Origin: Deltaproteobacteria bacterium
Lineage (GTDB): Bacteria > Desulfobacterota > Desulfuromonadia > Desulfuromonadales > Geopsychrobacteraceae
Reading direction: 5' to 3'
NCBI GenBank assembly: GCA_024280335.1
Contig: JAJRQI010000023.1
Span: 1-55,063, forward strand
DNA length: 55,063 nucleotides
Each line of letters begins with the position of its first letter. Within the stretch, counting starts at the first letter, position 1. This document shows positions 39,353 through 55,063 of this stretch, in pieces. Under the pieces are notes generated by a model. That model saw nothing but the letters and a program-made list of their open reading frames with translations. It ran no database searches and was not told the origin of the DNA. The translations under genes and the position numbers were made by a program.

Positions 39353-39828
39353 TTGGTGTCCAAGCGGTGCCCATCTGGTGCCCGCTCCTTAAGTTGGGAT
39401 ACTTCTCCGTTGTTGGGCATTATGCCTCAGTTTGTGTGTCCGGGATAGTGCCGCCACTTCAGATCTGGATGGTTTCAAAATTCTTGCTATTTCACGCAGG
39501 CACATGATAGAAATTCAGTGTTTTTTGTAAACCATTCAAAGTGTGTCCCGTTTTCGGCACTCTCCTGATGAGGTTTTGCGGTCAAAGGCAATGGGACACG
39601 GATCTACACGGATGGGCACGGATTTAGATGCAACGCAAGGAGTACTCTTGTCGGTTTCGGCTTAATCCGTTGAAATCAGATTTTATCCGTGTTCAGGGGT
39701 TTTGAAATCCGAGGCAATGGCCGAAAGCGAATGACGGTGTTTTATCAAGGACTCCTGCCTGCGTCGTGCCACATAATGTGCTGAAGTTATCAATTTTAAT
39801 TGTATTGCGTAATAGAAAAGGTGGTGTC
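39353..39828. other. non-coding region downstream of tRNA-Arg with degenerate repeats
   Basis: No convincing gene is seen on either strand. Notable features are GGTGCCC direct repeats just past the tRNA terminator (about 39366-39383), an ACACGGATCTACACGGAT / CACGGATTT block at about 39596-39626 with its inverse ATCCGTGTT near 39688, and GTGCTGAAGTTA at 39777-39788. tRNA genes are common integration sites, so this may be the scar of a past insertion; no integrase remains here. Confidence 0.5.
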
Positions 39829-41898
39829 ATGGAAATGCCCAAAAGTTTTCTAGTCGCTTTAGCATGCTTTTCCTTGTTGCTTATTTCAACTATTCCGAAA
39901 GATTCCCACGCGGCTTGTCCCGCTCCAGCCCAAATTGTCGGGAGCACCTATAGCCCGACTTCTATTCAGGATGCTTATGATTACGCCCGTACGGCTTTGG
40001 GCCTGACAGATTTTACGCTTCGCCTTGCCGGCGAAATTTTTACAGGAGATTTACATCTCGATGGTGGCTCGGTCGTACTCGATGGTGGTTATGACTGCTC
40101 CTTCACGACCAAAACCGCCACGCCTACAGGTATTTTTGGGACGGTTTTCATTTCTGCCGGCGCTGCCAACTTTGCGGGGGGTGTCAATATTGTATCGACA
40201 ACGCAATGTGATTTTGATGTCGATCTTGACGGCTTCACTTCGATAGGTTCCTGCTTGGGCACTGCCGATGACTGTAACGACAGCAATGCTAACGTCTACC
40301 CCGGTGCGTCCGAAATCTGCGATGGCATCGACAACAACTGTGACGGGCAGATTGATGAAAATGTCTTTCCGCCTGATGCCGATGGAGATGGATATTACGG
40401 TCCCGGTTGCGGCTTGGTTGGCGAAGACTGTAATGATGACGATGCCACGATTCATCCGGGCGCTCTCGATATTCCCTACGACGGGATCGACCAGGATTGC
40501 AGCGGCGCGGACCTGACATTCGACGGGGAAATCTGCATCGGCTGCCATGTAGGCCTTACGGGGCCACCAGAGACATGTACAGGCTTGCACGACCTGACGA
40601 CTGCCCCGGATGCGTCCTGCGCCGGCTGCCACGCTCCGATTGTCAGCAATATTCTGCCCGGCCACTATGGGCGGACGGTTCTCTCCGACGGTAACGGCAT
40701 GACCGCCGGTTCGACCATTGTCTGCGCTTCCTGTCACGATCCGAATGATATTCTGCACCAGTGGGGCAGCCAGACGGTCTGGCCGAAGGTTCTGGCGGTA
40801 ACACCGAACATCGACTGTGACACCTGTCACGAAAACCGCGCAGCGGGGCATGAGACCGCCGCGGCGCATGACAACCGGGTCATTCTTGCCGAGTGCGGCA
40901 CCTGCCACACCAGCGATACGACGATCATCGGCCCCAGCAGTAACGGGACGCTGACCAGCGCCGCCGATGTCGATACTCTGCACCGTTCCGACTGTGATCT
41001 TTGCCACAGCTACACCGGCAGCAAGCTGAATACAGCGACCGTTCGCCAAGTCATCGTGCAAGGGGTCGGCGGTACCCCGGTCAACTGCACCGCTTGCCAC
41101 ACCGGCAAGGCGACCAACCACATTGATTTCGTCCACCCGATCTCCGTCGGGCCGAACGATCTTTCTTTTAATCCCCCGGGGATTCTCTGTGGCAATTGTC
41201 ACAATGTGTCGACTTGGGCCGAGATTGAAGGTGTCGAGCACAATGTTGTCACCAACGGAATCGGTTCCTGTGCGACCTGTCACAACAGTACCCGGCAGGA
41301 TGTGGTCAATACCATCGCTCAGGGACTTAACCCGACTCACTGCTTGAACTGCCATTCGGATAAGTCTTTGACCGAGCACGGCATGGTTGACCACGCAGCA
41401 CTCGGCTACGTGACCGGCGGTACGACCTACTGTCTTAACTGTCATGACGGAATCGATGCGGTGACCGTAACCCACAACTTCGATTGCTTCCTCTGCCATA
41501 CCAGTCTGCCGGCACTGAAAGCAGGGTTGCCGATTCATGGCGGAACCTGCATCGACTGTCACACGACCACTTGGGAAGGCATCCACGCAACAAACCCGCC
41601 CAGCCATAACGCATTGGTCCAGGTCGCTACGACAAGCTGCGGCAACTGCCACAGCGATCCGCCGCCGCTGGCCGATGCGGTCGATCCGAAGGTGCACGAC
41701 GCCTGTTCCAGCTGTCATGATACCACCGGTGGTCTTCTCAGCCTGGCGATCGGCAAGGACTTTATCTCTGGCGGAAATTGCACAAGCTGCCACGCTGGAA
41801 GCTGGGAGGGTATCCACCCGACTGCTCCGCAGTCCCATTCGAGCTGCACCAGCTGTCACAATGCAGCGACAGGCTCCCTTCTGATTCTGGGTCAGTAG
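39829..41898 (+). CDS. exported 17-haem cytochrome with MopE-like metal-binding repeats
   Basis: A 689-residue exported protein (signal LVALACFSLLLISTIPKDSHA). Three regions follow. Residues about 25-120 are beta-rich (GGSVVLDGGYDC), like a short beta-helix. Residues about 130-225 carry two MopE-type metal-binding repeats (DDCNDSNANVYPGASEICDG, IDNNCDGQIDE; then EDCNDDDATIHPG, DGIDQDC). Residues 230-689 hold 17 CXXCH sites with extra histidines between them. MopE-like motifs bind calcium or copper at the cell surface, so an outer-surface electron carrier is likely. The start at 39829 follows AAAAGGTGG. A strong terminator follows the gene. Confidence 0.85.
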   Translation: MEMPKSFLVALACFSLLLISTIPKDSHAACPAPAQIVGSTYSPTSIQDAYDYARTALGLTDFTLRLAGEIFTGDLHLDGGSVVLDGGYDCSFTTKTATPTGIFGTVFISAGAANFAGGVNIVSTTQCDFDVDLDGFTSIGSCLGTADDCNDSNANVYPGASEICDGIDNNCDGQIDENVFPPDADGDGYYGPGCGLVGEDCNDDDATIHPGALDIPYDGIDQDCSGADLTFDGEICIGCHVGLTGPPETCTGLHDLTTAPDASCAGCHAPIVSNILPGHYGRTVLSDGNGMTAGSTIVCASCHDPNDILHQWGSQTVWPKVLAVTPNIDCDTCHENRAAGHETAAAHDNRVILAECGTCHTSDTTIIGPSSNGTLTSAADVDTLHRSDCDLCHSYTGSKLNTATVRQVIVQGVGGTPVNCTACHTGKATNHIDFVHPISVGPNDLSFNPPGILCGNCHNVSTWAEIEGVEHNVVTNGIGSCATCHNSTRQDVVNTIAQGLNPTHCLNCHSDKSLTEHGMVDHAALGYVTGGTTYCLNCHDGIDAVTVTHNFDCFLCHTSLPALKAGLPIHGGTCIDCHTTTWEGIHATNPPSHNALVQVATTSCGNCHSDPPPLADAVDPKVHDACSSCHDTTGGLLSLAIGKDFISGGNCTSCHAGSWEGIHPTAPQSHSSCTSCHNAATGSLLILGQ

Positions 41899-42355: not shown

Positions 42356-42370
42356 TGGCACACGCGTTGC
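42356..42370 (+). promoter_or_regulatory. sigma-54 (-24/-12) promoter of the OmcS-like gene
   Basis: TTGGCAC-ACGCG-TTGCT matches the RpoN consensus TGGCAC-N5-TTGC exactly; the invariant GG (42357-42358) and GC (42369-42370) are 10 nt apart. It lies about 220 nt upstream of the OmcS-like ATG. The enhancer-binding activator is not in the window. Confidence 0.85.
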
Positions 42371-42382
42371 TAGCTATACCCA

Positions 42383-42588
42383 ATGAGTATCGCGAATCCC
42401 AATAAAACAAATAGGCGGGGTCGGTTTGAACTTTGTGATATGGCCGAAAGGAGGTGCAGCAGGATCGCTAGCCTGTCACGTCAAACTAGAGAGAATATAA
42501 AAAAGAATATCGAGTTGGAGACCTTGGCACTGCGTAGGGCAACGCCGAGCGAAACGCAAAATGAAAAACATTCATTTGGAGGAAAACG
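42383..42588 (+). ncRNA. long structured 5' leader of the OmcS-like mRNA
   Basis: About 206 nt lie between the expected transcription start and the ATG. A three-part hairpin is visible: GTTTGA (42424-42429) with TCAAAC (42481-42486), GTGA (42435-42438) with TCAC (42476-42479), and GGC (42442-42444) with GCC (42471-42473). The purine-rich loop contains GGAGGTGCAGCAGGA. A second potential fold lies near 42526-42560. It does not match the GEMM (cyclic dinucleotide) consensus. A 69-codon open frame at 42383 has no ribosome-binding site and is not accepted. Confidence 0.4.
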
Positions 42589-43875
42589 ATGAAAAAAGTA
42601 TTAGCAATAATTGCTATGCTGGCAATCCCTGGGATGTCCATGGCCGCAGGTCTGGTCGGTGACTGTTATGACTGTCACACCATGCACAACAGCGAAGCTG
42701 GCCAAGCGGTCGCCCAGATTGGCACCGTGGCTGGGACGACCACAAGTGCAAACCCGATTGCGAACCTGCTGAGGCTTGATTGTATGGCCTGTCACGCGAA
42801 TGATCCGGTTGCTGGAAATAAAATCTGGACGATGCCTGGTGGTTCCGAAGTTCCCCAGGTTGCTCACGGCGACGCAACCGGCGACCTCGCCGGCGGTAAC
42901 TTCTCTTATGGTTTTGTCGGCAACGGCACCGTCAGTCAAGTACACAACGTTAAAGAACTGTTCACGGCCGGGTCGGAAGACTACACTCCTGCGTTCGGCA
43001 ACCCGCCGGGCATGGTCGGCGATGGCTCCACGCACACCGATATTTTCACAACTAGTGGTGGTCCTGGTGCCTATGACCAGTTCACCTGCGCCGGCGCTCG
43101 CGGCTGCCACGGTACCCGTGCTCAGTTAGTCGGTAACGGCACCGGCAACATCAAGCGGGTCGGCATGGCCGCCATCAGCGGCGCTCACCACTCCAGCTAC
43201 GATGGTGCCAAGGATGCAACTAACTATACCGCAGGCGCAGGAACCCATGACGGTGCGAAAGTTGCTGAAGGCTACCGTTTTATTCCGGGCCTGAAGGGTT
43301 ATGGAAATGAGCAGGCCGGCGATCGCTGGGAGAACTTTGATGCGAACTCGCACAACGAGTACTACGGCGATGCCGCCGGCGGCCTCACGGTGACTGGCTG
43401 TGACAACTGCCACAACGGTTTCACTGCTGTCAACGCCACCATGAACGTGCCGAACAACTCGGTGAGCGGTTTCTGCTCCACCTGTCACGGCAACTTCCAC
43501 TCTTCCGGTGCTGCTAACGACGTTGTTGATAACGGCTTCAGCGGAGCGTTCTTGCGTCACCCGTCTGACTACATCATTCCGAACCAACGCGAGTACGCAG
43601 CCTACACCGCTTACGACGTCAGCGCTCCGGTTGCCCGTCCGGCCTTGGCTACCGCAACCAGCGCTCTTGTGACTCCGGGGACCGACATGGTCATGTGTCT
43701 CTCCTGCCACCAGGCGCACGGTACCGCCAATGATTACATCCTGCGCTTTGACTACGCGACCATGACCGCTGGTGGCTACCCGACCATCTCTGCTGCACGG
43801 GCTGCAGGCGGCTGCCTGGCCTGTCACACCGAGAAGGGCGCTGCAATCCAGTCTAACGGATTACCTCTTCCATAA
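42589..43875 (+). CDS. OmcS-like multihaem c-type cytochrome
   Basis: A 428-residue exported cytochrome (signal peptide ending MSMAAG). Six standard CXXCH sites are present (CYDCH, CMACH, CDNCH, CSTCH, CLSCH, CLACH) plus one CX5CH (CAGARGCH). The start of the mature protein, CYDCHTMHNSEAG, resembles OmcS (CEGCHTMHNSLGG); CLSCHQAHG and the late RHPSD also match. OmcS polymerises into conductive extracellular filaments in Geobacter sulfurreducens. Low complexity, Gly/Ala/Thr-rich sequence suits an extracellular protein. GGAGG precedes the ATG, and a sigma-54 promoter drives it. Filament formation here is inference. Confidence 0.8.
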   Translation: MKKVLAIIAMLAIPGMSMAAGLVGDCYDCHTMHNSEAGQAVAQIGTVAGTTTSANPIANLLRLDCMACHANDPVAGNKIWTMPGGSEVPQVAHGDATGDLAGGNFSYGFVGNGTVSQVHNVKELFTAGSEDYTPAFGNPPGMVGDGSTHTDIFTTSGGPGAYDQFTCAGARGCHGTRAQLVGNGTGNIKRVGMAAISGAHHSSYDGAKDATNYTAGAGTHDGAKVAEGYRFIPGLKGYGNEQAGDRWENFDANSHNEYYGDAAGGLTVTGCDNCHNGFTAVNATMNVPNNSVSGFCSTCHGNFHSSGAANDVVDNGFSGAFLRHPSDYIIPNQREYAAYTAYDVSAPVARPALATATSALVTPGTDMVMCLSCHQAHGTANDYILRFDYATMTAGGYPTISAARAAGGCLACHTEKGAAIQSNGLPLP

Positions 43876-43924
43876 TAAGGGAACTGACGGGGAACTGAAT
43901 TCCGTCGTAACCTGATCTGAAATA

Positions 43925-43970
43925 CCGTTACCCGGTGCGTTGCGACGCGCCGGGTAACGGTTTCTTTTTT
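43925..43970 (+). terminator. rho-independent terminator of the OmcS-like gene
   Basis: CCGTTACCCGG (43925-43935) pairs with CCGGGTAACGG (43950-43960), with further GCGT/ACGC pairing inside, followed by TTTCTTTTTT. Confidence 0.9.
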
Positions 43971-44243
43971 GGTAACTTCAACATAAACGAATGACGCCAG
44001 TTTAAGCTCTTTTTGCCGGAGTAACGCAGTAAACTCGGGACTGTCCCCAGGGTCATCGGGGGCTGTCCCAGAAGTTTACGGGCCATGAAACTCTGGTGCT
44101 TCGCGCCGCAAAATCCTGGGACAGCCCCCTCTAAAACAAAAGAGCGCGGGGACAGTCCCGGTTTTGCTGACATTTTCCCCCTGTACTAGCGCCATGCGGA
44201 TGACAGACGTTATTGTCGATAGTTCGAATTGTGCTGAAGTTAC
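43971..44243. repeat. palindrome-rich repeat element with GTAACTTCA ends
   Basis: GGTAACTTCA at 43971-43980 and TGAAGTTACC at 44235-44244 bracket the segment. Within it are two nested inverted repeats: CGGGACTGTCCCC (44036-44048) with GGGGACAGTCCCG (44148-44160), and GGGGGCTGTCCCAG (44058-44071) with CTGGGACAGCCCCC (44116-44129). These look like REP/palindromic elements often mobilised by Y1 transposases; no transposase gene is present. Confidence 0.7.
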
Positions 44244-44718
44244 CTTTTTTGAAGATTTGGACTGCCGGTTTGCTTGCTGCCACAAATGGGCCGGAGTCGG
44301 TAGACTGATTTTCGAATAAAATCTTGCAATTAGTGACTTGAGGGGAGGCGTTGAATCGGTTAGGATGCTCGTTTAATGGTGCTGTGGTCGAAATTGTTCG
44401 GTTCCGGGTGCCGTTAAAGTGTCGGTGCACATCGCGCGTAACCTTTATCCCGAGGGGCTGCCCCCGGGTATCGGCTGCCGACTGCAGCATAGGCGGGCAA
44501 TCCCCACTTTAGAGAATCCAGGAGGCTGTCCAACAATCGATGACCGGCTGCAAACCCGGCTGTTTGGCCCATATTTCAGCTCCTTTTCGGCCCATAGCTA
44601 CGGCTATGAGCTCTCAAACGAGCCTAAATCTGTTCTCAAACTTCCGAATTTTCGCTTCGGCCCTTATGGTCGGTCAGCATCCTAGGAGACTCAGCTTCGG
44701 CCCGAGTTACTGATTTGA
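44244..44718. other. non-coding gap before the outer-membrane barrel gene
   Basis: No convincing gene is seen. A GC-rich hairpin (CCCGAGGGGCTGCCCCCGGG) lies at 44450-44469. The segment 44515-44690 looks like a degenerate dispersed element: it starts GGAGGCTGTCC, carries the palindrome CATAGCTACGGCTATG at about 44592-44607 and ends near CATCCTAGGAGAC. Its open frame of 88 codons on the plus strand arises from the repeat and is not accepted. No promoter is obvious for the operon that follows. Confidence 0.45.
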
Positions 44719-46878
44719 ATGCTTTTTCCTGTCCGCTACCTTAAACCGTTACTTGTTCTGCTGGTTCTGTTTGTGGTGGTGTGCGTCCCCGCTGTCGTGT
44801 TCGCCATCAACCTGAATGGCATCTGGACCTATCGCGAAAGCGGTGCAGACAGTGGCGAGACCTTTCGTGAATTACGGCAGAACTATTCCTTAGGGGTCGG
44901 TCCGACCCTGACCTTTAAACCCAGCCATGCGCTGACGGTCAACGCTTCGGTCGGCTATACTCAGACCAACCAGGTTGACGGTCAGGAGGAGCGCGCCGGT
45001 CGGACGATTACGCCGACCGCTGGCTTTACCCTGACGAACGACCTTTTTTCGGCCCGGTTTTTTGGTAATACTACCAGTTCTCGGTCGGATGGCGGAGATG
45101 GGTCGAGCAGTACTAACTGGGACGCGACCCTTACCAGCCAGTGGGATGAGCTTTATGTTCCCAAGTTGTTCTTCTCTTATGGGGAGTTCGGGGATTCCCA
45201 GGGGGCTGGCATCGTTTCGCCAAAAACTCAGAGTCAGGATCTCGGCGTCGGCGTCGATTGGGATCTTTATCTTGCTGAGATCTCCTACTATTACCGTCAG
45301 GCGCGCTTCGAAGACCTGCCGACCACCAAGTCGCATTTTGTCAAGCTTAAGACGGCGGGCAGATTCTGGGATAACCGCATCGCCTTTACGCTCTCCCAGC
45401 AGGTCCAGTTCGAATCTCAGGAGATAGACGGCGGCGCACTGGCAGGGGGCGCTGATGTGCCGGTTGGCAGCCAGGTCCGCACTGCAATCAGTCCTAATGA
45501 CACCCCTGTTGAATACAGCGACGACGTGAACAGGATTCCGGGGCGCGATTGGTTGAGGTCTGCCCCGTTTCCATCCTCTCGGCTCCCTTATTCTGCTTCG
45601 GAGCAAGTTCTGATTGCGATTGACCCGCCGACAACCCGCCGGATCGGGGCGGTAGAAATCAGTTTCAATGCTGTTTTGGATCCCGGTGTCGGCAGCAGTA
45701 ACTGGGATCTCTATGAATACCGACCCAGCAGCGACGACTGGGAGCTGATTGGTCCTAATATTACCAAGACTCAAGAGTTTGACGATGGAACGATCAGACG
45801 GCTGCGCTTCGAGATTCCGGAAACCGATCGGGAGTTCGACCGGGAGTTCCTGCTTGCGAGCGACAGGCCGAGCAGCAGGGGGGGGAGTGCCGGGGAAATA
45901 ATCAACGTTGAGGTTTTTGAAATTTTTTCCGGTTCGGGCCGGATGATCCAGAGTTATCAGACCAACGCCGGAGTCCAGATGCGGTTCAGCGAAACCCTCT
46001 CATCTTCGCTGGGCCTGACCTACACTGGTGATAAATTGGAAACCGATGGCGGTGGCGCAGACGATATTGATACCGATATAGTGACGACCAGCGCTAATAT
46101 CAGCTGGCGGCCATTTCCCTTTTTGACCGCCTCTCTCGGAGGCAGTGATTACCGGGAGCTGAAAATGGGTGAAGAACAACGTCTGAATCGGAACTATACG
46201 CTGATTGTCAATGCGGCCCCGCTGCCGACCATGAATGTCAGTTTTGGCGCGCAGTTAGACGAACGATACGGGGTTATTCTGGAAAGCGGTGCTGCTGACA
46301 TTGATCAGAAAACTCTCGAAACGCTGCGCTACAGCATCAGCGGCAAGGCGCAGATTTATCCCGATCTTTCCGCGAGCTTTAACATGTCATACACCGAAGG
46401 GCACCGCTGGCTCAAGGATGAGGGCGCTGACACGGGGCAAGTTGTCAACACTACGGGGCAGGACGGGCGCCTTGACCTGAACGCCAAACTTTACAAAAAT
46501 CTCACCGCTGACCTTATCACTCGTTTCTTTCGCTCGGTGAATGAAGGGATCGGAGTTGAATCGGGCTCTGCGGAGCTTGGTCTGCGCTTTCGGCTTTCCG
46601 AACTGTTGCTGGTTCGTGGCAGCTACAGAACGGATTTTATCGGCGAAGGTCGCCCCGATTCGTTAAGTCTCAGGGTGCAGACACGTTTGCTGGATACAGA
46701 CAAGACGCGTCTGGAGACGGAATTTAGTCATACCCAGGCCGAGGTCGTGGTGGAAACAATCTCCATTAACGGCAGCTGGCGGGCCAGTAAGAATATCTCG
46801 CTGATCGGACGCGGAGGGTATAACTTTGGCGAGGTGAACAGCTACGATTTAACATTAGATTTGCTCATTGGGATCTAG
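44719..46878 (+). CDS. large outer-membrane beta-barrel (porin of a putative cytochrome conduit)
   Basis: A 719-residue protein. A signal sequence (LLVLFVVVCVPAVVFAINLNG) is followed by alternating amphipathic strands typical of a barrel of perhaps 20 or more strands, with Gly/Ser/Asp-rich loops. A compact insert at about 255-410 (for example DWELIGPNI, TIRRLRFEIPE) resembles a globular domain. The protein ends in DLTLDLLIGI, lacking the usual terminal aromatic. It begins the gene series leading to 26- and 16-haem cytochromes, so it is the likely barrel sheathing a cytochrome across the outer membrane. The family name is not known to me. Confidence 0.75.
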   Translation: MLFPVRYLKPLLVLLVLFVVVCVPAVVFAINLNGIWTYRESGADSGETFRELRQNYSLGVGPTLTFKPSHALTVNASVGYTQTNQVDGQEERAGRTITPTAGFTLTNDLFSARFFGNTTSSRSDGGDGSSSTNWDATLTSQWDELYVPKLFFSYGEFGDSQGAGIVSPKTQSQDLGVGVDWDLYLAEISYYYRQARFEDLPTTKSHFVKLKTAGRFWDNRIAFTLSQQVQFESQEIDGGALAGGADVPVGSQVRTAISPNDTPVEYSDDVNRIPGRDWLRSAPFPSSRLPYSASEQVLIAIDPPTTRRIGAVEISFNAVLDPGVGSSNWDLYEYRPSSDDWELIGPNITKTQEFDDGTIRRLRFEIPETDREFDREFLLASDRPSSRGGSAGEIINVEVFEIFSGSGRMIQSYQTNAGVQMRFSETLSSSLGLTYTGDKLETDGGGADDIDTDIVTTSANISWRPFPFLTASLGGSDYRELKMGEEQRLNRNYTLIVNAAPLPTMNVSFGAQLDERYGVILESGAADIDQKTLETLRYSISGKAQIYPDLSASFNMSYTEGHRWLKDEGADTGQVVNTTGQDGRLDLNAKLYKNLTADLITRFFRSVNEGIGVESGSAELGLRFRLSELLLVRGSYRTDFIGEGRPDSLSLRVQTRLLDTDKTRLETEFSHTQAEVVVETISINGSWRASKNISLIGRGGYNFGEVNSYDLTLDLLIGI

Positions 46879-46946
46879 AACAGGGGTAAGGTATGGGAAT
46901 GTTGGAAACGATAGGTCGGTCCGTTTTTTCACTGGGGACGGAGAGA

Positions 46947-47507
46947 ATGAAGATTAAACTGATCGTGGCGGTATTGCTGGGTGGTGTTGTCTTTTTGTCC
47001 GGGTGTGGCGGCAGCCCCAGCCTGACCCAGTCTTACATGCGGGAAAATGCGAGCCTCTCTTATATCAAAACTGTTGCCGTGCTGCCGTTTGAAGGCAGCA
47101 AGCGGGCCCCCCGAATCCGGGAATTGACGACAACCCAGTTGTTGGCGTCCGGGTTGGTCGATGTCATCGACAAGGGGCGAGTCGACAGCTTTCTGCAGCA
47201 GGAGGCGATTCCGCCAGCTGAGGCGCTCGACAATTTTACCATCAAGCGGATGGGAGAGAGCCTCCAGGTTAACGCTATTTTGCGTGGCTCGGTTGAGCAG
47301 ACAGAAGGAGTACGCGGGAATTCGACATTTACGGAAATGATCATTACTCTGCGTCTGATCGATACCGAAACCGGCTTGCTGCTCTGGCAGGCCAGCGGCA
47401 GGGGCTCCGGCTATTCTTTACTCGACCGCATGTTCGGGTTTGCCCCGAAGGACTCTTTTACCGTGACTCTGGATCTGCTCAACGCATTGTTTGCGACCAT
47501 GCGTTGA
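46947..47507 (+). CDS. TolB-N/CsgG-like lipoprotein
   Basis: A 186-residue lipoprotein (lipobox LSGC, Cys near residue 22; VVFLSGC). The core reads IKTVAVLPFEG, then RELTTTQLLASGLVDVIDKGRVDSFLQ and INAILRGSVEQ-type strands, ending in LRLIDTETGLLLWQASG, which is the alpha/beta layout shared by CsgG, GNA1162 and TolB N-terminal domains. The frame extends to 46893, but the ATG at 46947 gives the lipoprotein signal and has GGAGAG just upstream. It is the first of three related modules in this operon. Confidence 0.75.
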   Translation: MKIKLIVAVLLGGVVFLSGCGGSPSLTQSYMRENASLSYIKTVAVLPFEGSKRAPRIRELTTTQLLASGLVDVIDKGRVDSFLQQEAIPPAEALDNFTIKRMGESLQVNAILRGSVEQTEGVRGNSTFTEMIITLRLIDTETGLLLWQASGRGSGYSLLDRMFGFAPKDSFTVTLDLLNALFATMR

Positions 47508-47773
47508 GGTCGTTTCAGCTTCTGTTGTATCGGCGTGGGCGAATCTGTCGGCAGCCCGGTTTTCAAGGATTGCCTGGTGTGCATTCGCGCAGTCGCGAGG
47601 TGCCGTTTTTTGGTTCGCTTTCTGCGTGATTCCACGTAATTGTTTTGCTGCCGCCGGGTTATTCTATGGCGCCCATCTGCTCTGTTTTCGTGCGGGAAAG
47701 CACTTGCAGCGGATGTCAATACCCGCCACAGTCGGCCGACGGATAAAAACGCACGACCAAGGATAGAAGTGAT
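47508..47773. other. 266-nt gap, no clear feature
   Basis: No convincing gene, terminator or promoter is visible. A plus-strand 91-codon frame (47491-47766) has no family features, a Cys/Phe-rich composition unlike its neighbours and no ribosome-binding site. Confidence 0.4.
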
Positions 47774-49282
47774 TTGAGAGTGGAACGAAATTTGCTTTTA
47801 CTGGTCTTTCTGGTCTTGCTGATCAGCGCTCCCGGGGTTGCCGGCGCCGCCGGCGCGCCGATCGCGGTTTTCCCCCTGCAGGAACTGGGGGAGTCGCGAA
47901 ACGGTGTGAACCTGGCGCTGACCAAAGAGCTGACGGAGCGTCTTGCCAAGAGCGGCAACGAGATTATCGGGATGGAATCGATGATGGCCTTTATGGCCAT
48001 GAACCGGATCCGCACCCCCGGCTATCTCGATACCGTCAATATTTCGCGGTTGCGGCGAGATCTCGGTGCTGCATTTATCCTCTTCGGAACGGTCACTGAA
48101 CGAAAAGAGCGCCCGGAGGCGAGAATCGGCTTGACTCTCAACCTGGTGCGTACCAGTGATGTGCGGACTGTCTGGGCATATGTCAATGGCCGCAGCAACA
48201 GCGAGGAGCGCAATGTGCTCGCGATTGCCGAGCCGACGTCGACCGACGCCCTGGAAGCGATCCTGCTTGCTGAGCTGCTCCGTGACTGGCCGTGGCAGAT
48301 TATTAACGAAGAACAGTTTGCCGGCGCCCTGGAGCTGGACTCGGTTTTGCTACGGCCGCTGAACGTACGCCCCGGCGGCGAGGTTTCCTGCCGGGTCAGA
48401 TTGGAGAATACCTGGGGAAACGGGCAGCCGCCGCGGGTGTTCTTCAAGGCGAATGAGCAAATTTATCCGGCCACTGTGGGCGCTGATGGGGTCACTTACG
48501 AGGGGAGCTGGATCGCCGGTGAAGACAACGTGCGAGTTCCGGTGACCCTGGTTCTGGACTGGCCGGTTTTTGACCGGACGGAATCGGCCCTGTTGGGAAA
48601 TTACCTGGTCGATGGCACGCTTCCCCTTTTTAGACTCGAATTGCTTGGCGCCAAAAAATTGGCTGATCGCCGGGTTTTCGATAAGCAAGTGACGATTATT
48701 CCGCGGATGATCATTCGCAAGCAGCTGGCGCGCTGGCGGCTGTCTTTTTACTTTGAAGGCGTAGAGCGGGCGATAGGTCACATGGAGGGGGAAGGAAATC
48801 TGCCGAATGGTTTCGTTTGGCGGGGGATGCGTGGCTTGGAGGATCGGGGAGACGGGGACTACCGGATTCAGGTGGAGGTTTGGGACAAGGCGGGCAATAC
48901 GTATCAGGTGACGGAAAAGGTCGAACTGCTGCGCAGCAGTCCCCAGGTTGAACTGGCGCTGACACATTCCGAAACAGAGGTTGTCGCGGATCTGGAGTAT
49001 TCCGGCAAGGTTCCCTTGAGTTACTGGCGGCTCGAGATGTGGACTGAAGAAGGAGTGATCCTGACACAGGTCGAAGGGGAGCATCTGCCGATCTCGATCG
49101 ACATGCAACTGCCGGAATCGGCGGAGGGCCGGGGGATCGAAGGGATTATTTTCTCCCGGGATGTCCTCGGCAAGGAGTCCCGGCAGAAGGTTTCGCATTT
49201 TTTGCCGAGTCTGTCTGAACTGGCGCAACAAGAAAAAGAGAAAGACGACGGGGTTTCGAAAAGTTGGGTTGATGAATTCTAG
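47774..49282 (+). CDS. exported TolB-N/CsgG-like protein with Ig-like C-terminal domains
   Basis: A 502-residue exported protein (signal LLVFLVLLISAPGVAGAAG). The N-terminal module (about 28-175) starts APIAVFPLQELGESRNG and contains ERLAKSGNEIIGMESMMAFM and RRDLGAAFILFGTVTE, close in layout to the lipoproteins on either side. Two or three beta-sandwich-like domains follow (about 195-270, 310-400, 405-480). The C-terminus is acidic. The frame starts with TTG at 47774; a GTG at 47780 is the alternative. Context suggests a periplasmic assembly factor of the cytochrome system. Confidence 0.7.
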   Translation: MRVERNLLLLVFLVLLISAPGVAGAAGAPIAVFPLQELGESRNGVNLALTKELTERLAKSGNEIIGMESMMAFMAMNRIRTPGYLDTVNISRLRRDLGAAFILFGTVTERKERPEARIGLTLNLVRTSDVRTVWAYVNGRSNSEERNVLAIAEPTSTDALEAILLAELLRDWPWQIINEEQFAGALELDSVLLRPLNVRPGGEVSCRVRLENTWGNGQPPRVFFKANEQIYPATVGADGVTYEGSWIAGEDNVRVPVTLVLDWPVFDRTESALLGNYLVDGTLPLFRLELLGAKKLADRRVFDKQVTIIPRMIIRKQLARWRLSFYFEGVERAIGHMEGEGNLPNGFVWRGMRGLEDRGDGDYRIQVEVWDKAGNTYQVTEKVELLRSSPQVELALTHSETEVVADLEYSGKVPLSYWRLEMWTEEGVILTQVEGEHLPISIDMQLPESAEGRGIEGIIFSRDVLGKESRQKVSHFLPSLSELAQQEKEKDDGVSKSWVDEF

Positions 49283-49319
49283 TCGTCTGCTGATCAATAG
49301 GCTGCTAGCAGGAATCGAG

Positions 49320-49952
49320 ATGACGCGGGCGATGACTTTGTGTAAGTATAAGTATTTTCTGCCGACTTTCTTCCTCCTGGCTTGCGTCGGCTGTTCTCCG
49401 CTGTTGCCGTGGACTGACGGGGTGCCGATGCACCGTGAGGTGTCATCGTTGCCGTCTGAGAGCGGTTGCCGGATCGCCGTCCTTCCCTTTCTGAACGATT
49501 CGGAGTTCCCCCAGGGGGGGCTTCTTGTCCAGAAGGTGTTTGCCGCCCAGCTGCTCTCTTCCGGCGAGCATCTACTGACCCCGGAAGGGGATATCGTCAA
49601 GGCTTACCAGCAGTTGCATCTGCTTCCCGGCGCCGCGCCGACGCTGGAACAATTACGGATAGTCGCCGATCGGGTCAATGCCCCGCTGCTGCTGACCGGA
49701 ATTATCCTCGAAATGCGCGAGGGGCGCAGCGAACATCAGACTATCAACCCGCAGCTGATCCTGGAAGTCGAGCTGCGCGATCCCGCCAGCGGTGAAATCC
49801 TCTGGACGATGTTCCACCGTCGTAAAGGGACCGATTACAATAAAACAATGCATTTCGGTACACTGCATACAGTGACCGGCCTCTGTCGACAAATGGCCGA
49901 GGAAATAATCAATCTCTGGTATGAAAAAGGATTTTCCCAATGCAACGAATGA
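49320..49952 (+). CDS. second TolB-N/CsgG-like lipoprotein
   Basis: A 210-residue lipoprotein (FFLLAC lipobox; a second cysteine at VGC is also possible). The core CRIAVLPFLNDSEFPQGG, then QLLSSGEHLLTPEGDIVKAY, LLLTGIILEMREG and LRDPASGEILW repeat the layout of the neighbouring modules. The ATG at 49320 has AGGA 6 nt upstream; earlier in-frame starts overlap the previous gene and spoil the signal. It overlaps the parvulin-like gene by 13 nt, so the pair is translationally linked. Confidence 0.75.
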   Translation: MTRAMTLCKYKYFLPTFFLLACVGCSPLLPWTDGVPMHREVSSLPSESGCRIAVLPFLNDSEFPQGGLLVQKVFAAQLLSSGEHLLTPEGDIVKAYQQLHLLPGAAPTLEQLRIVADRVNAPLLLTGIILEMREGRSEHQTINPQLILEVELRDPASGEILWTMFHRRKGTDYNKTMHFGTLHTVTGLCRQMAEEIINLWYEKGFSQCNE

Positions 49953-51559
49953 TTTCGATTTTGGCCCTGCTGCTTTGTTTTACTCTGCTGCCGGAGGCTG
50001 CGCGGGCGGGTTGGTTTTCTAACGATACCTTGCTGACGATCGACGGAACAGAGCATACGGTGGAGGATTTCAAGCGCTGGTGGCAATTCTGGCAGGAGAA
50101 AGACCAACCTTTGCCGGAAAGCCCTGATTTTTATATCGACTGGCTGCTCCTCAAAGAGGAAGCGGAGCGGATGGATCTGGCCAATGCCCCCGGTTTCAAA
50201 AGGAAGGAGCGGATTTTCCTGCAGTCGCGCGGGCTGCTGATGCTCAAGAACGAGGCCGTCGACAGCCAGATCAAAGTGACTGATGAACAAATCGAGGCGC
50301 GTTACCAAGAGAAATATCTGCCGCGCTGGCTGATTCAACGGCTGCAGTTTGTCGACGAGGAAGCGGCGCTGAAGGCATGGCAGGAACTGAGTGATGGTAA
50401 GGTGACGGTTGCCTCGCTGCTTGAACGAAGCGTCGAAGAGGGTGGCCCGGAAGGCTCTGGCGAAAGCTGGTTGCGTCCCAAGGGGACCGATCCGGGCTGG
50501 GTCGCGATTTTGCAAAAAAAATCGATCGGCGAAGTGGTTGATCCCGAGCTGCACAAGAAGGGGAGCGCCCTTTACTACATGAAGGACAGCGACAATGGCA
50601 GTGAAGAATATCTGGGCACGGTTCGGGGCGAGATCAGCAAGACTCTCTGGCGTGAGCAGGAGGATCAGCTGACGGCAGAGCTGCTCAAGGATCTGACCGA
50701 AAAGTACCAGATGAAAATCGATGAAGAGCGACTGGCTGCTATCGATCTGACGGCCGAAGACAGTACCTTCAGCGACGAACTGGTGATTACCAGCAGCAAG
50801 GAGAATGTTTCGGAAAAGCAGTTTGTGGCGGTCGTTCGCAAACTGGCGAAAACCCGGCCGACGGCGATGATGGCCATGACGGATGAGAAACTGGCGCAAA
50901 AATTCAAGCTGGAGACGGCGAACAACATTATCCATCAGAGTGTCACGAACTGGTGGACGCTGGATCGTCACTTCGAGAAAGAGGAGCCGTTCAAGTGGTC
51001 CTATCGGTTCAATTATAACTACCGCTTGGTGTCGATGCTCGAACAACAGCTTTTTCAGGTGAAAGTTAAGCCTACCGAGGAAGAGCTCGCGCTATTGTAT
51101 CAGGAAAAGGCCAAGTTCTATATCGTGCCGGCCCAGGCAAAGCTGTATATTGTCGACGAAACCCAGGGTCCGATTGATAAAATCTGGGCCGAAGTCGCCG
51201 TTGGTAAGCCGTTTAAGCAGGTAGCCCGGGAGTATCTGGGCCGGTCGGTGCGACCTGTCGAGGCCCCGTTGAATCATCTTGACCCACAGGTCAAGGGTGT
51301 CGTTGCCAAGCTTGCGGTAGGAGAAACCAGCCAGATTTTCAAAGCCCAGGACGCTCGGGTCTTGGTCCACCTGGTCTCGCGGACTTCAAAACAGCCGATG
51401 CCGCTGGAAAAGATAAAAGACTCACTTCTTTCCGGGTTTATACGGGAAAGTTTTGACAAGGCGCGCAAGGCGTATCTGGAAACACTCAGATCCAGCACCA
51501 GGATTGAGGTGGATGAGGGGAATTGGAAATCAATTCAGAAGGAACTTGGAGGCGCATGA
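49940..51559 (+). CDS. periplasmic parvulin/SurA-like peptidyl-prolyl isomerase
   Basis: A 539-residue exported protein (signal LALLLCFTLLPEAARAG). The SurA-type N-terminal helical region begins LTIDGTEHTVEDFKRWWQFW. A degenerate rotamase-like domain lies at about 130-225 (WLIQRLQFVDEEAALKAWQE, with GESWLRPKGTDPGW), and a second at about 370-475 (AKLYIVDETQG, AVGKPFKQVAREYLG). Such chaperones help outer-membrane barrels and secreted cytochromes fold. It overlaps the genes on both sides, placing it between the lipoprotein and the 26-haem cytochrome. Confidence 0.8.
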   Translation: MQRMISILALLLCFTLLPEAARAGWFSNDTLLTIDGTEHTVEDFKRWWQFWQEKDQPLPESPDFYIDWLLLKEEAERMDLANAPGFKRKERIFLQSRGLLMLKNEAVDSQIKVTDEQIEARYQEKYLPRWLIQRLQFVDEEAALKAWQELSDGKVTVASLLERSVEEGGPEGSGESWLRPKGTDPGWVAILQKKSIGEVVDPELHKKGSALYYMKDSDNGSEEYLGTVRGEISKTLWREQEDQLTAELLKDLTEKYQMKIDEERLAAIDLTAEDSTFSDELVITSSKENVSEKQFVAVVRKLAKTRPTAMMAMTDEKLAQKFKLETANNIIHQSVTNWWTLDRHFEKEEPFKWSYRFNYNYRLVSMLEQQLFQVKVKPTEEELALLYQEKAKFYIVPAQAKLYIVDETQGPIDKIWAEVAVGKPFKQVAREYLGRSVRPVEAPLNHLDPQVKGVVAKLAVGETSQIFKAQDARVLVHLVSRTSKQPMPLEKIKDSLLSGFIRESFDKARKAYLETLRSSTRIEVDEGNWKSIQKELGGA

Positions 51560-53502
51560 TGAAACTTGGATCGGTACAAACTATCACCCTGCTCGGTCTT
51601 GTCCTCCTGGCGGTGCTGACGAGTTGCGCAACGACGACGGTCGACAAGAAGCCGGTCATCAAACGCAAATGTGCCCAGTGTCACCCTGAAATGGTCGCGA
51701 CCTACCAGACCGGGGTTGTCCATCAACCGACCCGGAATGGCAACTGCGAAGCCTGCCATTTGACCCATGGTCTGGTTCCGTCTCTGCTGATGCGCCAGCC
51801 GGTCCCCTCGGTCTGCTTGTCCTGCCATTCCAAATTTCAGCAGGCGACCGGCAAGATGGTTGTGCATGAACCGGTCAGTGCCGGCAAGTGTGAAACCTGC
51901 CACGACCCGCATAATTCCGAAAATGCAAAGTTGCTCACCGCACCTGAAGAGCAGCTCTGTTTCGAATGCCACGATGCCGACCCCTTTACCCGCAATACGG
52001 TTCATGCTCCGGTCGAGGATGGCTGCATGACCTGCCATGATGCTCATATGGGCACGGAGAAAGGGCTGTTGGCGATGAACAAGGATGAGCTGTGCGCGAC
52101 CTGTCATGAGTTCGCCGACAGCGCTTTCGTCAAGGCTCATCAGAATTATCAGGTGAAGAACCGCTGCACTGACTGCCATTCGCAGCACAGTTCCACTGAC
52201 CCCGGGTTGTTGCGCGAGGTGGTACACGCGCCGGTGCGCAGCGGTGACTGTAATGACTGTCACCAGCTCAAGGGAGCGATGATCAGTCTGCAGTCTTTCC
52301 AGGATGGGGTCTGCCTCGCCTGTCATGAAGACACCCCGGCGGCCGCTCAGCATCAGCCGGTCAAGGACGCGGACTGTCAAGCCTGTCACGCTGAGCATGC
52401 CAGCGAATACGCAGGGATGCTCGGCGATCAGCCGACCCGGATCTGCCTGGGTTGTCATGAACAGGGCAAAAAGGCCCCGGAGGTCCGCAGCACGCATGCA
52501 CCGGCGAACCGGGGCGAGTGCCTGACCTGTCACAGCGGCCACTCGTCTGTGCAGCGGGCGCTGTTGAAAGATGACACGCCAGCGCTCTGCTTTGATTGTC
52601 ACGAGCAAACAGCCTACGCCTCGAAAAGGAACCCGCATCCGCCGGCGAAAGAGGGGCTCTGTCTGCAATGTCATGCCGCTCACGACTCTGAAAACGGCCG
52701 ACTGCTGACGAACCGGGAAGGCTCGCTCTGTTTTTCCTGCCACCGACAGGTCCGTGGCGAGAAGGGACTGTTCAGTCAGCACCGCCCCTTTGCCCGTGGT
52801 CATTGCTCAGCCTGCCATGCCCCCCATGGCGGAGCGGCGGCTGGATTGCTCAGGGAGGAGTTGACGGCGGGGACGCTCTGTTTCTCCTGTCATGAAGATC
52901 TGGCCGAGAGAAAACAGGAAGAAAACGCGCATTCGCCTTTTGCTGAAGGTGACTGTCAGGCCTGCCACGGCGCTCACGGCACCGACCAGGCCAGCCTGAT
53001 CAAGGGGCGCCCGGGCGACGTCTGCCTGAACTGCCATGACGACGTCGGCGATGAAATCAAAGCATACAAGGTTCAGCATGGACCGGTGGAGAAGATGGAT
53101 TGTACCGCCTGCCACAGTGGTCATGGTTCGCCGCACTCCGGCTATACCAACAAGAATCAGCCGGCTCTGTGTCTGGGATGTCATGGTGAGGTGGCGACAT
53201 TCTGGCGTGACGGCGCCTTGCATCAACCGGCCGCAGAGGATTGCACGACCTGTCACAATGCCCATGGCTCGAACCAGAAAAAGCTGCTGAGCATGACCGC
53301 CGGTGAGCTTTGCGCCGATTGTCACGACCAGCAGACCGATCGTTTCCTCGTTGCCCACCATGGGATCAGGCCGGGGCCCGATTCCTGTGTCAGCTGTCAT
53401 GATCCACACGGCGGGCCGGAGCGGAACCTGCTTTATCCGGTCAGCCATACCCCGTTTTCGCCGAACAGCTGTACGCCGTGCCACGAAGGGAGGGCGAAAT
53501 GA
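51556..53502 (+). CDS. 26-haem c-type cytochrome lipoprotein
   Basis: A 648-residue protein with a lipoprotein signal (LLAVLTSC, Cys near residue 24) and 26 CXXCH sites by my count, arranged in a near-regular repeat: a haem, about 20-25 residues with a conserved H-x-P-V/A, then C-x-x-CH-x-x-H (for example CETCHDPH, CMTCHDAH, CTDCHSQH). The regular spacing suggests a rod-like stack of haems. As an outer-membrane lipoprotein it may thread through or attach to the upstream barrel. It overlaps the isomerase gene by 4 nt and the next cytochrome by 4 nt. From memory G. sulfurreducens has a 26-haem protein near omcS; I cannot check the match. Confidence 0.88.
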   Translation: MMKLGSVQTITLLGLVLLAVLTSCATTTVDKKPVIKRKCAQCHPEMVATYQTGVVHQPTRNGNCEACHLTHGLVPSLLMRQPVPSVCLSCHSKFQQATGKMVVHEPVSAGKCETCHDPHNSENAKLLTAPEEQLCFECHDADPFTRNTVHAPVEDGCMTCHDAHMGTEKGLLAMNKDELCATCHEFADSAFVKAHQNYQVKNRCTDCHSQHSSTDPGLLREVVHAPVRSGDCNDCHQLKGAMISLQSFQDGVCLACHEDTPAAAQHQPVKDADCQACHAEHASEYAGMLGDQPTRICLGCHEQGKKAPEVRSTHAPANRGECLTCHSGHSSVQRALLKDDTPALCFDCHEQTAYASKRNPHPPAKEGLCLQCHAAHDSENGRLLTNREGSLCFSCHRQVRGEKGLFSQHRPFARGHCSACHAPHGGAAAGLLREELTAGTLCFSCHEDLAERKQEENAHSPFAEGDCQACHGAHGTDQASLIKGRPGDVCLNCHDDVGDEIKAYKVQHGPVEKMDCTACHSGHGSPHSGYTNKNQPALCLGCHGEVATFWRDGALHQPAAEDCTTCHNAHGSNQKKLLSMTAGELCADCHDQQTDRFLVAHHGIRPGPDSCVSCHDPHGGPERNLLYPVSHTPFSPNSCTPCHEGRAK

Positions 53503-54689
53503 TGATAGCCGTCAAATCTTTGCGACCCGCACTGATATTTACTCTGTTGCTTGGCTTGCTGGTTGTGACTCAGGGGCGGTCCGAAGCGGCAATCGACTGC
53601 TTCTCCTGCCACGACCGCGACGCTTTTCAGAAGCGGGTCAATCATGAGCCGGCCGCTGCCGGTGATTGTCTGTCCTGCCACAATCCCCACGTCGCCCGTT
53701 TCGAGGCGCTGTTGCGGGATCAGGTCAAGGACCTCTGCTATTCCTGTCATACCGAAGCAGCGGAAAAACAGTCTCGCGGACTGGTTCACCAGCCGGTCAG
53801 GACAGGAGACTGTCTGGGATGCCACAACCCGCACGCCTCGGATCAGGCGGGAATGCTCAACGACCGGCTGGCGACAACCTGCTTCAGCTGCCATCAGGAA
53901 CTGCCGCGTCAGTACAAGAATACCCATGCGCCCTATGCGGACGGTGACTGTGATTCGTGCCACCTGCCGCATCAGTCCGAGTACCCCTATCTGCTGGCGG
54001 CGACTCAGGATCAGCTCTGCCTGAAGTGCCATTCCCAGCCGACGCTCAGCAAGAAACACCGGAACTTTCCAGCCGAACTGAAAAATTGCGGAAGTTGTCA
54101 CCACCCGCACGGCAGTGATCGTCCGGGTCTGATCCGCAACTGGCTTCACGAGCCCTATGCGGAAGGCTGCTCATCCTGCCACGAAGGGAAGAATATCCCG
54201 GTGACGATGGATACCTGTCTGATGTGTCACCCCGAGGTCAGCGAACAGATGGCCTCGTCGCACAGTCATCTGGTCCGCTACCAGGAAAATGGTTGCATGG
54301 CCTGCCATTCGCCGCATGCAGGAGATGACAAGCGGCTGCTCAAGGGTAAGGAGCGCCACGTCTGTAGAAGCTGCCACGAAGCGACCTTTGTGCGATATCA
54401 GGAAAATAAATACAAGCATCAGATGACTGATGCCTGCAACAATTGTCATGCCCCGCACGGTTCCAACCACCCGGCGATGTTCAAGGGGCCGATCAACGAT
54501 GTCTGCAGCGAGTGTCACGACCGGCATGGCGTCTTTACCCACCCGATCGGCGAGAATATCTTCGATCCGCGCACCGGGCAGATGATGACCTGTAGCAGCT
54601 GTCATGCCAGCAAGGGAACGGATCATGATTACCACACCCGTTTTGAACGGAAAAAGGCTCTTTGTGTCCAGTGTCATGCAGAATATTAG
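53499..54689 (+). CDS. exported 16-haem c-type cytochrome
   Basis: A 396-residue periplasmic or surface cytochrome (signal LIFTLLLGLLVVTQGRSEAA) with 16 CXXCH sites (first CFSCH, last CVQCH). The repeat style (H-x-P-x-x-x-G-D-CLSCHNPH) is the same as in the 26-haem protein, so the two are related and may stack end to end. The start ATGATG has GGGAGGG upstream and overlaps the previous stop by 4 nt. It is likely the periplasmic or extracellular partner of the lipoprotein. Confidence 0.88.
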   Translation: MMIAVKSLRPALIFTLLLGLLVVTQGRSEAAIDCFSCHDRDAFQKRVNHEPAAAGDCLSCHNPHVARFEALLRDQVKDLCYSCHTEAAEKQSRGLVHQPVRTGDCLGCHNPHASDQAGMLNDRLATTCFSCHQELPRQYKNTHAPYADGDCDSCHLPHQSEYPYLLAATQDQLCLKCHSQPTLSKKHRNFPAELKNCGSCHHPHGSDRPGLIRNWLHEPYAEGCSSCHEGKNIPVTMDTCLMCHPEVSEQMASSHSHLVRYQENGCMACHSPHAGDDKRLLKGKERHVCRSCHEATFVRYQENKYKHQMTDACNNCHAPHGSNHPAMFKGPINDVCSECHDRHGVFTHPIGENIFDPRTGQMMTCSSCHASKGTDHDYHTRFERKKALCVQCHAEY

Positions 54690-54743
54690 AACCGTAGAAT
54701 GATTCGTGAAAGCTGTGATATCAGGATGCGAAAGGTAATTGAA

Positions 54744-55063
54744 ATGCGCCAAAATCAGAACAATGCAGGTTATTCCAGGAAGCTGAAGTCAGGATTGCTG
54801 GTGCTGTTACTGGTGTTGCTGCCGGTGGCCGCCGCGGCCCAGTCCTCCGTCTGGGAATGGCGGATGAGCCTGAAGATAGAAACCCCTGGCGATGCCATGT
54901 ATATGCCCTCTGCCGTTGCTTTTGACACCCGGGGTGAGCGTTACTACGCTATCGACACCGGTCGTAACCGGTTGGTCTCGTTCAGCCGCGACGGGGATTT
55001 GCTGAAGGCGTTTACCGCCAACGACCAGTTGAAGTCGCCGTTCGATATGGTGCGACTGGACAA
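54744..55063 (+). CDS. NHL-repeat protein (partial, cut by window edge)
   Basis: The first 106 residues are visible. A signal sequence (LLVLLLVLLPVAAAAQ) is followed by MPSAVAFDTRGERYYAIDTG and RNRLVSFSRDGDLLKAF, the pattern of NHL beta-propeller blades. Such exported propellers accompany cytochrome operons in Geobacter relatives and may serve as a binding scaffold. The start at 54744 has AAAGG 8 nt upstream; in-frame ATGs at 54699 and 54726 are alternatives. The rest lies beyond the right edge. Confidence 0.75.
   Translation, partial: MRQNQNNAGYSRKLKSGLLVLLLVLLPVAAAAQSSVWEWRMSLKIETPGDAMYMPSAVAFDTRGERYYAIDTGRNRLVSFSRDGDLLKAFTANDQLKSPFDMVRLD

Follow-up and report, generated by a model that had tools for sequence, protein, structure and literature searches.

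We analyzed a 55,063-base stretch of DNA (hereafter the window), which is the entire contig C29 of a Deltaproteobacteria genome (3.6 Mb, 99.5% complete) of the order Desulfuromonadales. The results indicated that the gene series at its end is very probably a divergent osc (omcS companion) operon, that is, a dedicated periplasm-to-surface line for a multihaem cytochrome of the OmcS family. A preliminary description of this DNA had named an OmcS-like gene followed by a barrel, lipoprotein-type genes, an isomerase, 26- and 16-haem cytochromes and an NHL protein, and this layout was confirmed: from the OmcS-like cytochrome to the propeller, all are open reading frames on the plus strand. Its proposal that the series builds and exports a cytochrome filament was right in outline, the gene set being of the kind that the available parts of published work link to OmcS folding and export. 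The genes after the cytochrome are lettered D to K, and these are not Osc letters: D is of the OscE type, E of the OscF type, F and G together correspond to OscG, and H to K are of the OscH to OscK types.

Previous studies in Geobacter have described this kind of operon. According to the available part of PMC12977616, an eight-gene block (GSU2500-GSU2493) lies downstream of the OmcS-like gene GSU2501 and was linked as a whole to the maturation and secretion of OmcS; GSU2501 was found in all 12 genomes with the block, OmcS was not found in all of them, and GSU2495 is a 26-haem protein. The available part of PMC13194489 names GSU2501 oscC, GSU2495 oscI and GSU2494 oscJ and, citing Shen et al. 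2025, assigns OscH to folding, OscE, OscF and OscG to secretion, and OscD to morphology. We assigned the Osc letters of genes unnamed in these papers by counting genes, from which we infer that OscH is the isomerase, OscE the barrel, OscF protein E, and OscG F plus G. The general system, an operon for cytochrome folding and export, is therefore already published and not new. The present analysis adds a split OscG, a moved OscD pair, a relation to PelC and a cytochrome family with a CX5CH haem site, unless these are already in Shen et al. 2025; the available part of the osc-naming paper (PMC13194489) contains nothing on any of the four. The folding and export of polymerising cytochromes by bacteria are only now being worked out.

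The window's genes were compared with Geobacter-type loci (type C below), a set that included no record named G. sulfurreducens. Between the window type and the Geobacter type, hhalign gave probabilities of 98.5% for the barrel, 99.5% for E, 99.1% for H and 99.1% for K, and BLAST gave 34-36% identity for I and J against five Geobacter-type loci. From barrel to propeller the genes are the same and stand in the same order, and the cytochromes again carry 26 and 16 haems. An OmcS-family cytochrome adjoins the block, upstream of it in the window and with a second one after K on contig C43, and an OscD homologue is present. On the Geobacter side, a type C locus encodes a true OmcS (P0011; E-value 2e-133 to PDB 6ef8), and a profile of five type C OmcS-like sequences matched the OmcS structure at 1.1e-164. 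The window differs from the Geobacter operon in four respects: OscG is replaced by two genes, F and G, the former having a long extension at its C terminus; an OmcS-like and OscD pair sits after OscK; the 26-haem protein I bears a lipobox (found in 4/4 type A, 5/7 type B and 0/5 Geobacter-type copies); and the cytochromes fall in a separate clade, the window's group having a CX5CH third haem site.

To describe gene order, we applied component profiles to 38 loci, the window and C43 among them, that surround isomerase or barrel matches. The loci were retrieved with the window's proteins. Sixteen of them, including the window, supplied the D to K profiles, and a few further loci were added for the OscD and cytochrome profiles. 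Additional NHL and cytochrome paralogues lying outside the block were disregarded. Within the reach of the sequence, the order D-E-F-G-H-I-J-K was collinear in 36/36 loci where two or more components were present, which argues that the gene series is not due to chance; the remaining two loci held the barrel alone and, on C43, the end of K. The numbers of CXXCH motifs in I and J (26 and 16) were constant in all copies uncut by contig or stretch ends. Barrel homologues standing apart from multihaem cytochromes, which the preliminary description had raised as a sign against its view, did not appear: 18 of the 22 barrel matches were looked at, and multihaem genes lay near each one with enough sequence (the 3.9-kilobase L060 was too short).

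Three layouts were distinguished. Type A consists of an OmcS-like gene, D to K, a 7-haem OmcS-like gene and an OscD-like gene; its members are the window, Pelovirga terrestris (L041/L130), Desulfuromonadales MAG38 (G100), G001 and probably G101, which is on short contigs. Type B consists of an NHL protein, one or more 12-haem cytochromes (9 and 11 CXXCH instead of 12 in two called frames), D to K, an OmcS-like gene (5 CXXCH plus CX5CH) and, where the sequence reaches, an OscD-like gene or further cytochromes; it comprises the rest of the order's loci in the set, L095 excepted. Type C runs OmcS-like, OscD, D, E, OscG, H, I, J, K and was seen in L094-L098. Five further loci, chosen from OscG matches, were all of type C: L142 and L143 were complete, L140 had OscD and no called J, and L139 and L141 had no OscD called between the cytochrome and the barrel. 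One genome (G108) carried both a type B (L046) and a type C (L140) osc operon, and in L051 (G078 C10) the barrel was read as two open frames, owing to a frameshift or an assembly error.

The window ends within K. The sequence resumes on contig C43 (L131, 11,712 bases), which belongs to the same genome and shares, in reverse orientation, the window's final 141 bases. C43 carries the remainder of K, a 366-residue OmcS-like cytochrome with 7 CXXCH and a 481-residue lipoprotein, followed by 10-haem, NHL (466 residues), 8-haem and 5-haem genes. For L041, a close relative in which K is intact, Pfam showed NHL repeats in that protein. The 481-residue lipoprotein (L131 8425-9867) gave a YNCE-like propeller match in Pfam and an hhalign probability of 99.3% to OscD, so that it is the OscD homologue in a position different from that of the Geobacter type. 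The absence of OscD from the genome, which the window alone suggested, was overturned by this gene, and the osc operon here is complete once C43 is counted. Gene Y, which lies upstream in sister operons and has NHL repeats and, in one scanned copy, a SPOR domain, was ruled out as OscD (hhalign 6.5%). The window's version separates fixed parts of the machine (barrel, PelC-like lipoproteins, isomerase, 26- and 16-haem proteins and propeller) from moving ones (OscD and its cytochrome).

The lipoproteins were then assigned by profile searches. Protein E matched the Pfam family LpoB (PF13036; E-value 1.9e-6, 28.2 bits against a cut-off of 22.3). A profile of 16 E proteins matched PelC (9h80, 1.5e-10), 5t11 (2.2e-10), 5t10 (5.4e-10), 5t0z (7.1e-7) and GNA1162 (9.8e-7) in the PDB, and a G profile matched 5t11 (1.1e-5) and PelC 9h80 (1.6e-4). 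We take 5t11 and 5t10 to be PelC, 5t11 being titled 'Uncharacterized protein'. By profile match and lipobox, clear in E and less so in G, both proteins belong to the PelC/LpoB/GNA1162 family. The preliminary description had called the three proteins TolB-N/CsgG-like: the TolB part found an echo in one relative of E, whose TolB_N score was just below the cut-off (20.1 against 22.4), while CsgG, as a model for E, F and G, gave no match in Pfam (E-values up to 0.1) or in PDB profile searches (E-values up to 1). With the CsgG curli exporter the window shares only the broad concept that a fibre subunit leaves through a pore made of lipoproteins. The combination of CsgG-like modules with giant haem rods, earlier presented as the most novel point, accordingly lost that standing, the operon type being published and PelC being closer than CsgG.

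Protein F was linked to E by profile (hhalign 88.7%). In type C, OscG has 364-394 residues; its first half matched columns 49-191 of the F profile (97.7%) and its second half matched G (98.6%, hhalign). F thus covers the N-terminal half of OscG and G the C-terminal half; what type C encodes as a single OscG gene is divided between two in the window. The fusion in Geobacter-type genomes suggests that F and G bind each other, and the natural split predicts direct F-G contact. In a fold search with a weak model of F, GNA1162 and LpoB matched the N-domain with template modelling (TM) scores of 0.61-0.67 by target length; the best E-values were mostly to immunoglobulin-like or other beta-sandwich chains, which were of low confidence and were set aside. 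From the model, the C-terminal extension of F probably consists of tandem beta-sandwiches. Two type C OscG genes (L139 6819-10274 and L140 9375-12782) had an N-terminal extension of about 800 residues (1136-1152 residues in total).

The relation to PelC makes it a candidate structural model for the export gate. In the available part of PMC12141448, the outer-membrane exporter PelBC has a ring of twelve PelC lipoproteins on the barrel PelB. The window resembles it in encoding PelC-family lipoproteins beside a barrel and differs in that its barrel has no significant solved relative, its cargo would be a haem protein, and a ring would be a prediction. A term search for PelC together with OmcS in the literature gave one unrelated paper. 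Among solved structures, PelC is closest to E and one of the closest to G, so that the barrel and lipoproteins could export a polysaccharide as in Pel, with the cytochromes as passengers. This is highly improbable: the genes are constantly linked to cytochrome and isomerase genes, and 0/20 Pfam-scanned proteins were polysaccharide synthases, most flanking genes of the other loci being unannotated.

The barrel D itself gave no significant match in Pfam and no significant solved relative in the PDB. The hydrophobicity moment at beta periodicity was raised in 6/6 barrels (z 2.5 to 4.5), compared with 0.1 for H, 0.3 for OscD and up to 2.0 for the beta-rich F (three controls). D is accordingly called a barrel as a prediction from beta-strand periodicity and orthology. 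With the roles taken from published Geobacter work, the isomerase (OscH) would fold the cytochrome, and the barrel with the lipoproteins (OscE, OscF and OscG) would let it out. Protein E, perhaps with G and the N-domain of F, may assemble beneath the barrel as a PelC-like ring into which the subunit is delivered. Outside, the subunits would join head to tail, the CHTMH histidine completing a haem of the neighbour as in OmcS. The 26- and 16-haem proteins may reside in the periplasm or at the outer membrane, where they would either supply the wire's base with electrons or keep the wire in place.

The same genes could instead form a porin-cytochrome conduit across the outer membrane, in which the barrel sheathes a haem rod (the 26-haem or 16-haem protein, or the adjacent 12-haem protein of the sister operons) and moves electrons, filament export being secondary or absent. 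In type B, the version more common in the order (e.g., L043 13790-15996), an NHL-repeat protein, with a SPOR domain in the L043 copy, and a 12-haem cytochrome lie directly 5' of the barrel and possibly feed electrons to it; the 26- and 16-haem genes also remain with the block wherever the contig extends, J being uncalled in 1/5 of the further loci. The window's barrel, in turn, has no adjoining 12-haem gene, and known conduits do not, to our knowledge, include PelC-like lipoproteins or a prolyl isomerase. Together with the published gene roles in Geobacter, which in the available parts of PMC13194489 and PMC12977616 are folding and secretion, these points make the conduit improbable, and we retain export of an OmcS-family cytochrome as the function of the operon.

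To characterize the exported protein, we compared the window's cytochrome with solved structures. A profile of five sequences of its family gave only OmcS as a significant match (2.2e-9; next, 0.22). The motif CHTMHNS at the first haem was invariant in the 5/5 aligned sequences, the window's included, so the failure to align at the OmcS ligand that the preliminary description had held up as a warning did not occur, if the motif has the ligand role that we assume. On this profile match and motif the cytochrome is assigned to the OmcS superfamily. It is not an OmcS proper: it has 6 CXXCH plus one CX5CH, which accounts for the '6-7 haem' count given earlier, and it lies on the other side of a 100/100 split from the type C cytochromes. 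The second histidine of CHTMH is presumably the inter-subunit ligand in OmcS. PMC9473688 (available in part) describes in OmcS and OmcE a haem that takes a histidine ligand from the adjacent subunit, and it also reports in OmcZ a haem site widened by a 14-residue loop between the cysteines, a precedent for CX5CH. At the third haem position, OmcS has CXXCHDPHG and the window's protein CAGARGCHG.

The CX5CH site was surveyed in 69 family members, taken from open frames of at least 250 residues in the retrieved loci, with at least 4 CXXCH and a BLAST match at 1e-12 spanning over 150 residues, and grouped by best BLAST match; some members were partial, and several paralogues could come from one genome. 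CX5CHG was present in 16/16 window-type and 27/27 type B members (together 43/43), in 0/18 of the 7-haem group and in 0/8 of the OmcS group. We propose that a haem is attached through CX5CH. A term search for CX5CH in the literature found none, which is weak evidence, as the spelling varies. In two relatives (L132 and L133), OmcS-like genes stood in tandem; the second copy ran off the available sequence, and 4 CXXCH plus CX5CH were seen there.

The likeness to the OmcS filament (PDB 6ef8 and 6nef) comprises the CHTMHNS first haem, an aligned CLSCHxAH site and the fact that OmcS is the sole significant solved relative; the differences are low identity, the seventh haem site, the CX5CH third site and the separate clade. 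We tentatively propose that nanowire subunits include a second family, the sister of OmcS, made up of the window's cytochrome and its relatives in the order, with the third haem bound through CX5CH and with export by an osc machine whose gate is a ring of PelC-type lipoproteins and whose OscG is two proteins; we consider the case for this near to balanced, leaning slightly towards doubt. Such OmcS relatives with an unusual conserved haem site would be a family open to direct testing. The protein may instead be secreted by the machine and stay a soluble or surface-bound monomer, a rather unlikely outcome to which the sequence distance from OmcS, the extra haem site and the CX5CH site lend weight, as does the available part of PMC12977616, where OmcS is the only one among its relatives in G. 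sulfurreducens known to form a wire. Against the monomer stand the invariance of CHTMHNS and the conservation of CHxMH in 13/16 window-type and 27/27 type B members, again under the assumed ligand role; CHxMH was also kept in 15/18 members of the 7-haem group and 5/8 of the OmcS group, so the motif alone does not single out wire formers.

Several observations weigh against an osc operon that exports a filament subunit. The cytochrome alone matched no solved structure at E-values up to 0.1, and although hhalign gave 99.4% to OmcS, only the first 180 residues of the cytochrome were aligned. In a tree of 33 sequences (midpoint root for drawing), all type A and B cytochromes split from all type C ones with 100/100 support. 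The seventh haem site and the unusual third site set the protein further apart, and that it forms filaments is a prediction from sequence. As for the machine, F alone found no significant solved relative in the PDB profile search (best 0.54), and its AlphaFold2 model was weak (predicted local distance difference test, pLDDT, 56), with moderate confidence only in the N-domain and the first sandwich; the barrel model was unusable (pLDDT 36.8). In the close relative G100, the barrel is on a separate contig (L040) and none lies beside E (L039). Among the nine other members of the genus, eight have type B (26-29% identity), and so the same function is not guaranteed. The Osc roles come from PMC13194489 and PMC12977616, both citing Shen et al. 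2025; the available part of PMC13194489 further states that OmcS wires are unneeded on anodes or for Fe(III) oxide, so that their physiological weight is disputed, and reports evolved strains with many mutations across the osc genes, including an oscJ frameshift.

The distribution of the operon was examined in 277 genomes of the class. An isomerase of the window's kind was found in 29/277 at an E-value of at most 1e-12, all within the window's order, and a cytochrome of the window's kind in 36/277 at 1e-8 or below, 35 of them in the order. The OscG profile matched 53/277 genomes at 1e-12 or below, some being cross-matches of type A/B domains, and only part of these loci were opened. The isomerase profile A1 was unsuitable as a class-wide marker, matching 259/277 genomes at 1e-10, mostly through the PpiC domain alone, and was not used for counts. 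The closest relatives of the window's isomerase (46-49%) came from three further genera, of which two belong to different families. The distribution of osc versions possibly reflects horizontal transfer or differential loss.

The coordinates of the genes are listed in the table. A gap of 843 bases separates the OmcS-like gene from the barrel gene, and the following distances are 14 (D-E), 266 (E-F), 37 (F-G), -13 (G-H), -4 (H-I) and -4 (I-J) bases. About 50 bases past the cytochrome stop lies a hairpin of -34 kcal/mol (z -6.3). Taken together, the terminator scan was at chance level (6 found against 7.6 expected), and this was the sole stem used. Downstream of the cytochrome gene, hairpins with T-rich tails were also seen in Pelovirga, G001, the G100 tandem, and L094 and L096 of type C (no shuffle test); L098, whose gap measures 40 bases, showed none. 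A terminator past the subunit gene would allow more subunit than machine to be produced.

Table. Features of the osc-type gene series in the window
Feature	Position	Strand	Details
OmcS-like cytochrome, candidate filament subunit	42589..43875	+	428 residues; 6 CXXCH + 1 CX5CH; first haem CHTMHNS
Predicted strong intrinsic terminator	43924..43961	+	17-pair stem, T-rich tail; between subunit gene and machinery genes
D, predicted outer-membrane barrel, OscE-type	44719..46878	+	719 residues
E, lipoprotein, OscF-type, PelC/LpoB family	46893..47507	+	204 residues
F, N-domain matching N-terminal half of Geobacter-type OscG, plus C-terminal extension	47774..49282	+	502 residues; TTG start
G, lipoprotein, PelC family, matching C-terminal half of Geobacter-type OscG	49320..49952	+	210 residues
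H, PpiC-type prolyl isomerase/chaperone, OscH-type	49940..51559	+	539 residues; PF13145 E-value 2.4e-12
I, 26-haem lipoprotein cytochrome, OscI-type	51556..53502	+	648 residues; 26 CXXCH; lipobox LTSC
J, 16-haem cytochrome, OscJ-type	53499..54689	+	396 residues; 16 CXXCH
K, NHL beta-propeller, OscK-type	~54744..55063	+	start codon uncertain; truncated by window end, which is the contig end

Other features were seen around the series. A ResB cytochrome c synthase gene lies on C43 (L131 631-1971, plus strand), close to the far end of the extended cytochrome cluster, and is possibly a dedicated synthase for CX5CH; ResB matches were found on four contigs of the source genome. Upstream (5') of the OmcS-like gene, the window encodes a 710-residue protein (39766-41898) with 17 CXXCH in a stop-to-stop frame and MopE-type metal-binding motifs in two stretches (PF11617). 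At the contig start (58-139), a group II intron was matched in Rfam with 44.7 bits (cut-off 40).

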